A stretch of DNA of 64,000 nt from Hyphomicrobium sp. LHD-15. GTDB lineage: Bacteria > Pseudomonadota > Alphaproteobacteria > Rhizobiales > Hyphomicrobiaceae. The position numbers and the translations under genes were made by a program. Location of the stretch: contig NZ_JAVIFT010000002.1 of NCBI RefSeq assembly GCF_031157355.1, positions 544,501 to 608,500 on the forward strand. Reading direction: 5' to 3'. The notes beneath the pieces are model-generated. The model ran no database searches. It had not been told where the DNA came from and saw only the letters and a list, made by a program, of their open reading frames with translations. Below are positions 19,119-57,267 of the stretch, one piece after another (position 1 is the first letter of the stretch; each line of letters starts with the position of its first letter).

Positions 19119-19330
19119 TTCGATGAGATCGACGGTTCGCGCTTAGGCGTTATCTGCTTCACGCCGCGCTCGATAGGGAGCGCGACGATCGGAGCGGCTT
19201 CTCCTGCGCTGCCGATTCACGCCGTGCCTGGTAGGTGGCACGGCGATCGGAGCGCCTAGGTCTGAAGCGATCTGTGTGAGACCGATGATTCACGCTTCAG
19301 GCTGATAAGGCCTGAAGCGATTATGGTCTC
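19119..19330. repeat. Palindromic repeat, copy 1: outer unit with two inner units, then a tandem unit
   Basis: From 19119 a left half resembles the repeat's conserved flank (ATGAGATCGACGGTTCGCGC), and its right half is at 19258-19270. Between them lie two inner hairpins: CGCGCTC/GAGCGCG (19165-19171, 19178-19184, loop GATAGG) and CCGTGCC/GGCACGG (19222-19228, 19237-19243). A further unit follows with a 9-bp stem GCTTCAGGC/GCCTGAAGC (19294-19302, 19310-19318). The last bases encode the end of dsbB on the minus strand. Confidence 0.8.
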
Positions 19331-19836
19331 GAAGCCGCGAGGAAGGCGGCTTTGATGGCGCCGGTGAACGCCAGCAGCGACGCGATCACGTTCCAGCCCG
19401 CCATAGAAAGCCCCGCGAACGTCCAGGCTGCCTCATCGCAGCGGACGACGCGGGTCGCTTCGAGGCCGCTCAAGAGATCGGCAGCCGAGGTCGGTAGCGT
19501 CTGGGCGGTGCCGCAGGTGTCCGGGCCGGGCCAGAATTTCCATTCGACGCCGGCGTGGTAGGCCGCAAGCCCCGCGTTTGCGAGGAACGCCAGTGCCACC
19601 ACGAAGAAGAGAACGCCTGCAAGGCGCGGCTTCTCGGATACGAGCGCCATGGCAACGAAGAGAAGAGGGATCGCCGCGTAGTAGGCGTAGCGCTGGAGCA
19701 GGCAGAGCGGGCAGGGTGCGTAGCCGCCGAGGTGCTCGAAGCCGAGGGCCGTCAGGATTACGCCAGCCGCCAGGAACAGCGTGAGGCCGCCATAGCGATA
19801 GGCAGCGGTCCGTTCCGGCAATTCGGGCGTCAACAT
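19321..19836 (-). CDS. dsbB: Disulfide bond formation protein B
   Basis: 171 residues, four membrane helices. DsbB reoxidises the periplasmic thiol oxidase DsbA and passes electrons to quinone. The first redox pair is Cys42-Pro-Leu-Cys45 (YAPCPLCLLQRY); the second periplasmic pair is at GPDTCG and VVRCDE. ATG 19836 is preferred, with AAGGAG nine bases upstream; a TTG at 19845 would sit on top of the ribosome site. Its stop TAA (19321-19323) lies inside the last bases of a palindromic repeat, so the final two or three residues derive from that element. It is probably the last gene of the rph-VOC-rdgB-hemW-yqaA-dsbB run. Confidence 0.93.
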   Translation of the reverse strand: MLTPELPERTAAYRYGGLTLFLAAGVILTALGFEHLGGYAPCPLCLLQRYAYYAAIPLLFVAMALVSEKPRLAGVLFFVVALAFLANAGLAAYHAGVEWKFWPGPDTCGTAQTLPTSAADLLSGLEATRVVRCDEAAWTFAGLSMAGWNVIASLLAFTGAIKAAFLAASRP

Positions 19837-19875
19837 GGGACTCAACTCCTTGCGCGGGTTGGGCTTCCCGCGCTT

Positions 19876-44516: not shown

Positions 44517-45341
44517 ATGTCCAACGTCGAAGTTACCCGCGGCGCGCGTGAATCGAACACCATCAAGCTGCATGGGCCCGAAGCGTTTGCCGCCATGCGC
44601 AAGGCCGGACAGCTGGCGGCCGCTGCGCTCGACATGATCGGGCCCTTCGTTCAGCCCGGCGTGGCGACGGATGAGCTCGACGATCGCGTGCTCGAATTCG
44701 CGCTCGATCATGGCGCGGTGCCGGCCCCGCTCAACTATCGTGGATTCCCGAAGTCGATCTGCACCTCAATCAATCATGTGGTTTGCCACGGCATTCCGGG
44801 GCCTAAGCCGCTGCGCGAAGGTGATATCGTCAATATCGACGTGACGCTGATCGTCGACGGGTGGCACGGCGATACCAGCCGGATGTATGCGGTCGGCCAG
44901 ATCAGCCGCCGCGCGGAGCGCCTGATCGAAGTGACCTACGAAGCGCTGCGACTGGGCGTCGAGCAGGTCAAACCGGGCAACACGATCGGCCACATCGGCG
45001 CTGCGATCCAGGAGTTCGCCGAAAAAGAACGCTGCAGCATCGTCAGGGATTTCTGCGGGCACGGCCTCGGGCGGGTGTTCCACGATCGTCCGAACATCTT
45101 GCACTACGGCGAGCGGGGCGAGGGTGTCGTCATGGAGCCCGGCATGCTGTTCACCATCGAGCCGATGATCAACCTCGGCAAAGCGCACGTGAAGGTGCTG
45201 GCCGACGGATGGACGGCGGTGACGCGAGACCGCGAGCTTTCCGCTCAGTTCGAACACTCGGTCGGCGTTACGGAAACCGGCGTCGAGGTGTTTACGCATT
45301 CGCCGGCAGGCCTCGAGTGGCCGTCGGTTCCTAAAGGCTAG
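44517..45341 (+). CDS. map: Type I methionine aminopeptidase
   Basis: 274 residues. It removes the initiator methionine from new proteins. Metal-ligand motifs are all present: VNIDVTLIVDGWHGDTSRMY (two Asp), FCGHGLGRVFHDRPN (His), FTIEPMINLG (Glu) and SAQFEHSVGVTETG (Glu). KSICTSINHVVCHGIPG precedes the first ligand. Its stop (TAG, 45339-45341) begins the CTAG of a downstream palindromic repeat. radC follows. Confidence 0.96.
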   Translation: MSNVEVTRGARESNTIKLHGPEAFAAMRKAGQLAAAALDMIGPFVQPGVATDELDDRVLEFALDHGAVPAPLNYRGFPKSICTSINHVVCHGIPGPKPLREGDIVNIDVTLIVDGWHGDTSRMYAVGQISRRAERLIEVTYEALRLGVEQVKPGNTIGHIGAAIQEFAEKERCSIVRDFCGHGLGRVFHDRPNILHYGERGEGVVMEPGMLFTIEPMINLGKAHVKVLADGWTAVTRDRELSAQFEHSVGVTETGVEVFTHSPAGLEWPSVPKG

Positions 45342-45442
45342 AGCGTGATTGCTTTTCTTTGAATCGCAATCCCGCTCTAGGTTTTTGATGAGACCAATGA
45401 TTCACGCTTCGGACTGATAGGGTCCGAAGCGATCATGGTCTA
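45338..45442. repeat. Palindromic repeat, copy 2 (modules A and B)
   Basis: Module A (45338-45380) is CTAGAGCGTGATTGC ... GCAATCCCGCTCTAG, 14 of 15 positions pairing. Module B (45386-45442) has a 9-bp perfect stem GCTTCGGAC/GTCCGAAGC (45406-45414, 45422-45430) with loop TGATAGG, inside an outer AGACC/GGTCT pairing. It separates map and radC and ends 18 bp before the radC ATG. Confidence 0.85.
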
Positions 45443-49597: not shown

Positions 49598-50500
49598 ATG
49601 GACTGGGACAAACTCAGAATTTTTCACGCGGCTGCCGCGGCCGGCAGCTTTACGCATGCGGGCGATGCGCTGCACATGAGCCAGTCGGCTGTGAGCCGGC
49701 AGGTTTCGGCGCTCGAGCGGGATCTCAAGGTCTCGCTGTTTCACAGACATGCGCGCGGGTTGGTGCTGACCGAGCAGGGCGAGCTTTTGTACGGCACCGT
49801 GGCCGAGGTGATGAGCAAGCTGCAGACGGCGGAAACGCTGCTGGCGGACACCACGACGAAGCCATCGGGCCTCTTGAGCGTGGCGGCGCCGGTGGGGCTC
49901 GGCACGGTGTGGGTGTCGCAGCGGCTTCGGGAATTCATGGATCTCTATCCCGATGTGCGCATCGAGTTGATCCTCGACGACGACCAGATCGATATCGCCA
50001 TGCGGGCGGCAGACGTGGCGATCTGGACGCGCGAGCCGGAGCAGCCGGATCTCATCCGCCGGCCGTTGTTCACGGCGAGCGTGCGGCCGATGGCGTCTAC
50101 CAAATACACCCGCCGCTACGGCGTGCCGGAAACCTTCGCTGACCTCGAAACGGGCAATCATCGCGTGGTGTCTTACAGCGGCCAGACGGCGCAGCTTTTG
50201 CCGGCGATCAGCTGGCTCGAGACGGCGGGACGCGAAGGAAAAGAACGGCGAGAGCCGGTGCTACGCACCAACAGCGTGGTGGCCATCAAACAGGCTGTGC
50301 TGGCCGGGATCGGGATCGGCATGATCCCCGACTACATGAGCGAGCAGGACAGCGATCTCGTGCCGGTGCTCATGAAGTGTGAAGTGGAAAAGCCGAGTTT
50401 GCCGGTTTTGTTTGTCTATCCGGAAGAGCTCAAGAGCTCGAAGAAAGTCCAGGTTTTGCGCGATTTTCTGGTGGCCAAGGCCCGGCACTGGCGCGAATAG
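49598..50500 (+). CDS. LysR-family transcriptional regulator
   Basis: 300 residues. The N-terminal winged helix starts MDWDKLRIFHAAAAAGSFTHAGDALHMSQSAVSRQVSALERDL, followed by FHRHARGLVLTEQG, a linker helix and the periplasmic-binding-like effector domain. The GCGAGGG run upstream serves as ribosome site. This MDWDKLRIF type is well conserved in Rhizobiales. The stop codon TAG (50498-50500) is composed of T from a 7-bp target repeat and AG from an inserted element, so the original protein probably ended later. Direct targets are unknown. Confidence 0.92.
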   Translation: MDWDKLRIFHAAAAAGSFTHAGDALHMSQSAVSRQVSALERDLKVSLFHRHARGLVLTEQGELLYGTVAEVMSKLQTAETLLADTTTKPSGLLSVAAPVGLGTVWVSQRLREFMDLYPDVRIELILDDDQIDIAMRAADVAIWTREPEQPDLIRRPLFTASVRPMASTKYTRRYGVPETFADLETGNHRVVSYSGQTAQLLPAISWLETAGREGKERREPVLRTNSVVAIKQAVLAGIGIGMIPDYMSEQDSDLVPVLMKCEVEKPSLPVLFVYPEELKSSKKVQVLRDFLVAKARHWRE

Positions 50501-50803
50501 CCAGGCTGTAAACTCACTATGGCTGGTGCAGTGATGAGCCAAAGCGAGCCAATGGCGTTGTCAAACCGCTTGTCCGATACGACGGGCATCGACCGTCGTG
50601 CTGGAAGCACGCCTTCGGCATGACGCGCTTTTCCTAGCCCTTGGCTCGCTTTGGCTCACCCCGCAGGGGCGCCGTCCTTTTCCGCCTCCGGTTCGTCGCG
50701 AGACCTTGCAAACCATGGAGGTTTGCGGCGGCCTCGCTCCTGCCAGCGACGCAAAAGTCCTCGCGTCAATGCGCCAGCCATAGTGAGTTCACAGCCTAGC
50801 TTT
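50499..50803. mobile_element. MITE-like element, 305 bp, with nested inverted repeats
   Basis: Outer arms of 31 bp (50500-50530 and 50770-50800) match at 28 positions. An inner 18-bp arm pair is perfect: TGAGCCAAAGCGAGCCAA (50535-50552) and its reverse complement at 50641-50658. Direct repeats CGCGAAT flank the element (50492-50498 and 50804-50810), consistent with a 7-bp target duplication. There is no transposase, so it would depend on one elsewhere. A third small hairpin (GCAAACC/GGTTTGC) lies near 50710. Confidence 0.85.
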
Positions 50804-55243: not shown

Positions 55244-55348
55244 CTAGAGCATGGGTTGCTTTTGTGCGCAACGTGACCACGCTCTAACTATTTGATTAGG
55301 CCGCTGATTCAGGCTTCGATTTGTTAGGATTCGAAGCGATCATGGTCT
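55244..55348. repeat. Palindromic repeat, copy 3 (modules A and B)
   Basis: Module A (55244-55286) starts CTAGAGCATGGGTTGC and ends GCTCTA; module B (55292-55348) has the stem GCTTCGA/TCGAAGC (55313-55319, 55331-55337), with a divergent loop, and the flank GATCATGGTCT. It is the most degenerate copy. It lies between leuD and dacA. Confidence 0.75.
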
Positions 55349-55385
55349 CGCTGCTCCGATCGTCCCGGCATCCTGCAGGAAGGCC

Positions 55386-57108: not shown

Positions 57109-57267
57109 CTAGAGCATGATTGCTTTTCTTTGAATCGCAATCACCCTCTAGTCTTTTGATGAGACCTATGATTCACGCTTCGGACTTTTCCTGCGCTGCC
57201 GATTCACGCCGCGCCCGATAGGGGGCGCGACGATCGGAGCGCGGGGGTCCGAAGCGATCATGGTCTA
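57109..57267. repeat. Palindromic repeat, copy 4 with nested inner unit
   Basis: Module A (57109-57151) is CTAGAGCATGATTGC ... GCAATCACCCTCTAG. Module B begins at 57155, but its loop is replaced by an inner unit with stem CGCGCCC/GGGCGCG (57210-57216, 57223-57229) and loop GATAGG, after which B resumes (GTCCGAAGCGATCATGGTCT). The gap 56958-57546 holds nothing else I recognise. Confidence 0.85.

Follow-up and report, generated by a model that had tools for sequence, protein, structure and literature searches.

Among the palindromic repeats described in bacteria, the CIR repeats of Caulobacter and Brucella (Chen and Shapiro 2003) are intergenic elements of about 110 bp that comprise two linked inverted repeats and carry GANTC, as given in the sections of the source available to us (PMC2229807). 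The long hairpins of REP sequences are defined, in an account likewise available in part, with a bulge of 1-3 nt, and the same account has IS200/IS605 elements spreading through the single-stranded DNA at replication forks, with their strand following the fork (PMC6006769). The palindromes analysed here are of the REP/CIR-like kind. A search of open-licence papers returned neither a description of the repeat family nor a report that such repeats obey a strand rule over a whole chromosome, and the matches listed by a literature text search with GATTCACGC were unrelated primers and microRNAs.

We analysed a window of 64,000 nucleotides (positions 544,501-608,500 of contig NZ_JAVIFT010000002.1) from Hyphomicrobium sp. 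LHD-15 (GCF_031157355.1; coded G000). Palindromes are present at the four places named in a preliminary description of this DNA (19119-19330, 45338-45442, 55244-55348 and 57109-57267), and their features are collected in Table 1. The principal unit, B, is about 57 nt long and consists of GAGACCGATGATTCACGC, a 7-nt arm, a TGATAGG-type loop, the matching arm and GCGATCATGGTCT, forming a single hairpin with two stems; it is often preceded by a palindrome, A, and sometimes holds within its loop a storey of a further unit, C, which has the same frame as B with different stems. Tandem B units are spaced about 59-60 bp apart. Module A occurs in three of the four window copies, as claimed, lying directly 5' of the first B unit at three of the four loci. 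A shared frame followed by ATGGTCT had been attributed to all copies; the arms CGCGCTC, CCGTGCC and CGCGCCC, listed in the same series, instead belong to the related unit C, which is followed by CGGAGCG, and at the last locus such a C-type unit sits inside the loop of a B unit.

Table 1. Palindromic modules in the LHD-15 window (positions counted from the first base of the window).
Feature	Position	Strand	Evidence
Degenerate B unit with two C-type storeys in its loop (about 19156-19196 and about 19202-19257)	19119-19272	+	Sequence, repeat families D2 and D7; outer B judged degenerate by eye
Module B, arms TTCAGGC/GCCTGAA	19275-19331	+	R1 match C2:563775-563831, 78.5 bits
Module A, palindrome CTAGAGC...GCTCTAG	45338-45380	+	Sequence and folding
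Module B, arms TTCGGAC/GTCCGAA	45387-45443	+	R1 match C2:589887-589943, 84.2 bits; folding z -8.0
Module A variant, end GCTCTAA	55244-55287	+	Sequence and folding
Module B, imperfect arms TTCGATT/ATTCGAA	55294-55350	+	R1 match C2:599794-599850, 59.3 bits
Module A variant, end CCTCTAG	57109-57151	+	Sequence and DNA folding
Module B with a C storey in its loop (about 57186-57245)	57163-57265	+	R1 match C2:601663-601765, 46.8 bits; DNA folding

The intact B unit of the first locus lies 3' of dsbB (19321-19845, minus strand; DsbB domain match) and faces the opposite way. At the second locus the map open reading frame (44517-45341; Peptidase_M24 match) ends on a TAG that belongs to module A (45339-45341), so the repeat, which supplies the stop codon, probably entered at or just before the gene end. 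The window also contains an inverted repeat with 36-nt arms (50499-50534 and 50766-50801; 89% complementary, 231 nt between), and at a further locus (L028, about 1400-1490) a C storey sits in inverted orientation within a B hairpin, as though the loop had turned over between matching arms.

Compared by description only, and with a source available in part (PMC2229807), the A+B composite resembles CIR repeats in its length of about 105 bp, its two hairpins and linker, its intergenic position, its alphaproteobacterial host and its GANTC; unlike CIR repeats, B also occurs alone (many B units lack A) and in tandem, and storeys nest in its loop. GANTC is found in 160 of 190 units, a count biased by the pattern that chose the model units, where the background is 1.21 per kb, and the CcrM homologue of LHD-15 scores 616 bits (equivalog cut-off 830) and 518 bits to CcrMI 6pbd. 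The Br-REP1 and Br-REP2 repeats of Bradyrhizobium, in the portion of their description available, are likewise alphaproteobacterial, palindromic and intergenic, and both carry GATTC, but their sequences differ from those seen here (PMC5082802).

As many-copy, intergenic, bulged hairpins with clusters and with subfamilies that show matching stem changes, the repeats also resemble the REP/REPIN sequences that go with RAYT transposases; on the same partial accounts they differ in being tandem head-to-tail rather than inverted doublets, in keeping one strand across both chromosome arms, and in that a Y1 transposase was not found (PMC3116915, PMC6006769, PMC3733652). It is hardly credible that they are classical REPs mobilised by such an enzyme, even though they are clustered intergenic hairpins with a bulge of 1-3 nt, a bulge that also enters the definition of REP long hairpins (PMC6006769). 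The REP-associated Y1 transposase that the preliminary description had proposed looking for (RAYT, PF01797) was not found in the LHD-15 genome or in any of seven other Hyphomicrobium genomes (0/8), where a control search with PF01797 gave a match in 5 of 14 known genomes, and the REP tag GTAG/GTGG stands at the hairpin base in only 4 of 190 units (190 of 217 having been examined). Judged by transposase and tag, two defining traits of RAYT-linked REPs, the family does not fit that class. Mobilisation as integron attC sites found no support either: a search of five genomes for the integron integrase (TIGR02249) gave matches in all five, none of them over the cut-off (0/5), and likewise in all 14 control genomes, and we read these matches as Xer-type recombinases.

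In the B hairpin a 3-nt bulge (TCA) is conserved and always lies on the 5' side, so that the two DNA strands of B differ. Single-strand folding compared with shuffled sequences gives z of -9.2 for 45338-45442, a 105 bp stretch that folds as two hairpins, -8.0 for its B hairpin alone, and -3.2 for 55244-55348; with DNA energies, 57109-57267 reaches -9.8. That the arms change together was well founded: across 62 B units of the LHD-15 genome, both-sided changes occur in 12 of 20 stem pairs against a shuffled mean of 3.3 (0/500 shuffles reach 12), covarying cells number 74 against 21.8 in shuffles, and pairing holds in 96.0% of cells, compared with 25-42% when the partner is slid. The further claim that pairing stays perfect was too strong, since 53 of the 62 units match perfectly and nine are imperfect, including the window copy at 55294-55350. 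The perfectly matching arms fall into seven types, and because two of these make up 45 of the 62 units, many of the covarying cells reflect two subfamilies inherited repeatedly. The outer stem also changes, for example at columns 12-52, where seven units have C-G in place of T-A; the invariance of the GATTCACGC and GCGAT columns is by construction, as 61 of the 62 units were chosen by a pattern that fixed them. Template-switch correction of palindromes and selection for structure would both give this same picture of covariation.

The covariance model, R1, was built from those 62 units (69 pattern matches, 67 of them distinct, minus five C units and the odd unit L019, plus the window copy at 55294), three of the four window copies being among them. 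In each genome search the best 150 candidates were scored, and the unit counts are lower bounds. The family extends genome-wide, as had been supposed, with at least 118 R1 units in at least 91 loci of LHD-15; further copies thus exist, and the arms do not vary independently. The relative G006, assembled as one contig, holds at least 100 R1 rows, of which 99 were kept (a reverse echo at 3629030, overlapping a match on the forward strand, was left out), in at least 73 loci; G004, G007 and G001 hold at least 32, 29 and 49 units, respectively. Copies nearly always lie between genes, again as previously described, with 1 of 65 loci inside an open reading frame in LHD-15 and 2 of 71 in G006 (65 of the 91 and 71 of the 73 loci having been examined).

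An exact pattern is present in 38 stretches of species genomes, all titled Hyphomicrobium or, for three, Hyphomicrobiales. Two further stretches with exact B units lie in viral contigs (L227 and L228), which may be prophage or misbinned host DNA, and plasmid records searched for the repeat gave no match. Among 40 relatives, clear copies occur in all but one of the seven other Hyphomicrobium genomes, the exception, G002, having a single match that is unlike the family, and genomes outside the genus have 0 to 3 matches each, mostly dissimilar to it. One of these, in another genus of the same family (G014 C1:136141-136174, minus strand), combines the GATAGG loop with arms that match in part, and may be distantly related to the repeats. 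Loci are spaced at random (coefficient of variation 1.13, random range 0.80-1.23). Matching flanks were available in the G006 stretches examined for 23 LHD-15 loci, of which two are shared by script, and a third is shared by gene interval (C1:1013554-1013807 with G006:3345788); with so few shared, the orientation described below would have been acquired on many separate occasions, barring heavy losses. Intergenic DNA of the two genomes is too diverged for filled and empty sites to have given insertion ends or a target duplication.

Nearly every copy of the repeat lies on one strand around the whole chromosome, a polarity that the preliminary description missed because it takes whole genomes to see. 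In LHD-15 all 118 listed R1 units (91 loci) are co-oriented within their contig, and the 23 matches to module A (three mismatches allowed; none in G006) obey the same one-strand-per-contig rule. In many alphaproteobacteria the gene mnmG is found close to the origin; on LHD-15 contig C2 it is at 193281, where GC skew steps from about zero to +0.06, and the three units to its left and 35 to its right are all on the + strand. Contig C6 aligns with G006 on both sides of the inferred terminus (2.35-2.37 Mb and 2.28-2.29 Mb), and all eight of its units share a strand; C1, C4 and the first part of C2 show broad colinearity with the G006 left arm. G006 itself is a single contig of 3,653,837 bases with mnmG at 419650 and a terminus at about 2.2-2.3 Mb, as judged by GC skew and by GGGNAGGG, which we take to be a KOPS-like (FtsK-type) motif; its listed loci number 31 + and 2 - on the right arm and 33 + and 7 - on the left (p 1e-7 and 4e-5 against an even split), so that 9 of 73 are reversed. 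In G007, 20 of 20 listed units are on the - strand of C3 (2.51 Mb of 4.0 Mb), which crosses a skew step at about 1.4 Mb, and 9 of 9 are on the + strand of C2, while G004 and G001 have no contig of mixed orientation among the matches listed. A segment that is inverted between LHD-15 (C1 1443-1456 kb) and G006 (3615-3627 kb) has its units on the + strand in both genomes.

A polarity set by replichore is rejected, as the strand is kept across the origin (C2), across the terminus (C6) and along the single contig of G006, and the repeats do not follow the IS200/IS605-type rule of an orientation switch at the origin. The BRE repeats of Bordetella are likewise intergenic, at about 90 bp, with tandem copies, but are reported, in the part of the source available, not to be co-oriented with replication (PMC3110155). 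Br-REP2, sought as an orientation control, had 20 matches spread over 5 of 149 genomes, too few and scattered to serve.

Stable folds, together with a small excess of LHD-15 units between converging genes (27/62), could be taken to mean that the repeats are cis-acting RNA elements or small RNAs oriented by transcription. We consider this very improbable: all four combinations of flanking gene strands occur around units, the four arrangements in G006 numbering 20, 18, 16 and 15, so that orientation tracks the chromosome rather than the genes, and no Rfam family matches in the window or at the repeats of five further loci. Elsewhere in the LHD-15 genome, a SAM_alpha riboswitch (RF00521, 75 bits) lies on the minus strand at L033 14921-14999.

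Alternatively, insertion might have been random and reversed copies subsequently removed because they cause harmful inversions. With lengths that can pass 150 bp, composite loci are alike enough to recombine, and inversions between G000 and G006 do exist. Such purging is nonetheless quite improbable, since deletions by direct copies should be at least equally harmful, a record of 91 out of 91 listed loci would be hard to reach, and reversed copies persist in G006.

As a control, the GGGNAGGG motif flips between arms (right and left, respectively: 58:22 and 38:56 in G006, where the left-arm flip is weak; 34:6 and 6:16 in G000; 18:3 and 4:16 in G007). On an ordinary chromosome the sign of GC skew differs between arms, and two stretches of E. 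coli analysed with the same script gave +0.019 and -0.068. Once gene direction is separated out, 4-fold sites on the right and left arms have skews of +0.175 and +0.051 in G000, +0.173 and +0.032 in G006, and +0.126 and +0.048 in G007, with intervals that exclude zero. A part of the G006 left arm next to the terminus (C1 2.34-2.75 Mb) has a normal negative 4-fold GC skew of -0.076, and the rest of that arm does not. The 4-fold AT skew changes sign weakly between arms (-0.16 versus +0.02 to +0.05 in G006; -0.11 on C2 versus +0.03 on C1 in G000) and left-arm GC skew between genes lies just below zero (-0.009 to -0.02), which argues for a weakened left arm rather than a clean same-sign signal. 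What can safely be said is that most of the strand bias seen on the right arm has been lost from the left. The three species are about equally distant, with 4-fold identity of 52-54% against 37-38% by chance, and are far enough apart that the weakened bias is either old or maintained. Large replicons with one-way strand composition are likewise known from the unidirectional chromids of Pseudoalteromonas; in the sections of that report available, however, the chromid is a secondary replicon with its terminus beside its origin, where here it is the main chromosome and KOPS-like motifs indicate an opposite terminus (PMC7858055).

The main rival to the reading we favour is historical: copies would have been inserted under the direction of the fork while the left arm was replicated clockwise, from an origin elsewhere or in an ancestor replicated one way, and would have kept that direction since the present origin was established. 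We rate this as possible, though rather unlikely. The weakened left-arm skew resembles a decaying or reversing signal, left-arm AT skew has already changed sign, and reversed loci in G006 (7/40 on the left versus 2/33 on the right) lean in the expected direction, albeit not significantly (p 0.17). By a rough estimate, however, a switch that preceded the species split should have brought left-arm 4-fold GC skew to zero or below, yet it is positive in all three species; and most LHD-15 loci look younger than that split (2-3/23 shared), yet 0/91 of those listed are reversed.

Polarity could also be selected if the hairpin did a job that needs one chromosome direction, such as single-strand priming or steering DNA along the hypha into the bud, with reversed copies being lost. 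Uniform orientation in five genomes and the conserved structure fit such a role, as does the budding habit of the hosts; a report available to us in part has Hyphomonas neptunium passing its replicated chromosome through the stalk (PMC6650430). The proposal is improbable all the same, given the random spacing, the few conserved loci, copy numbers from at least 29 to at least 118, the near absence of the family from G002 within the same genus, and the fact that known DNA-guiding motifs flip at the terminus.

We tentatively favour, as plausible though short of probable, a reading in which these are non-autonomous REP/CIR-like hairpin repeats that multiply within Hyphomicrobium genomes and spread via single strands exposed by synthesis in one direction over the whole chromosome. 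A bulged hairpin of fixed strand, nesting within loops and the strand rule are the traces expected of spread through single-stranded DNA, and because the repeat strand follows the chromosome and not the fork, one-way synthesis or transfer is suggested as the source of the single strand. The active form would be the + strand folded into a hairpin, with new copies presumably going into single-stranded DNA. Clockwise synthesis through both arms would expose the same strand throughout, alongside ordinary replication from origin to terminus; it might come from a one-direction or rolling-circle-like round, or from single-strand transfer of the chromosome, and it would also weaken the strand composition bias of the left arm. 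Covariation of the arms would be maintained by template-switch correction or by selection on the hairpin. Against synthesis in one direction, the KOPS-like motifs fit an ordinary two-armed organisation, and the lack of a candidate enzyme, the sign-changing AT skew and the 9 of 73 reversed loci in G006 also count against it; the composition data as a whole lower its probability.

The strand preference of bacterial mobile DNA is ascribed to the direction of the replication fork, and on that account orientation should change at the origin and again at the terminus. Where a repeat stays on the same strand past both points, in several species and at mostly unshared loci, another source of polarity is needed. 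It is a more doubtful proposition that, in the Hyphomicrobium clade, the chromosome has a strand identity independent of its arms, with one-way synthesis or transfer, occurring regularly beside ordinary two-way replication, recorded by hairpin insertion into the exposed strand alone. If true, such synthesis or transfer of a main chromosome would be directly testable in a culturable budding bacterium.
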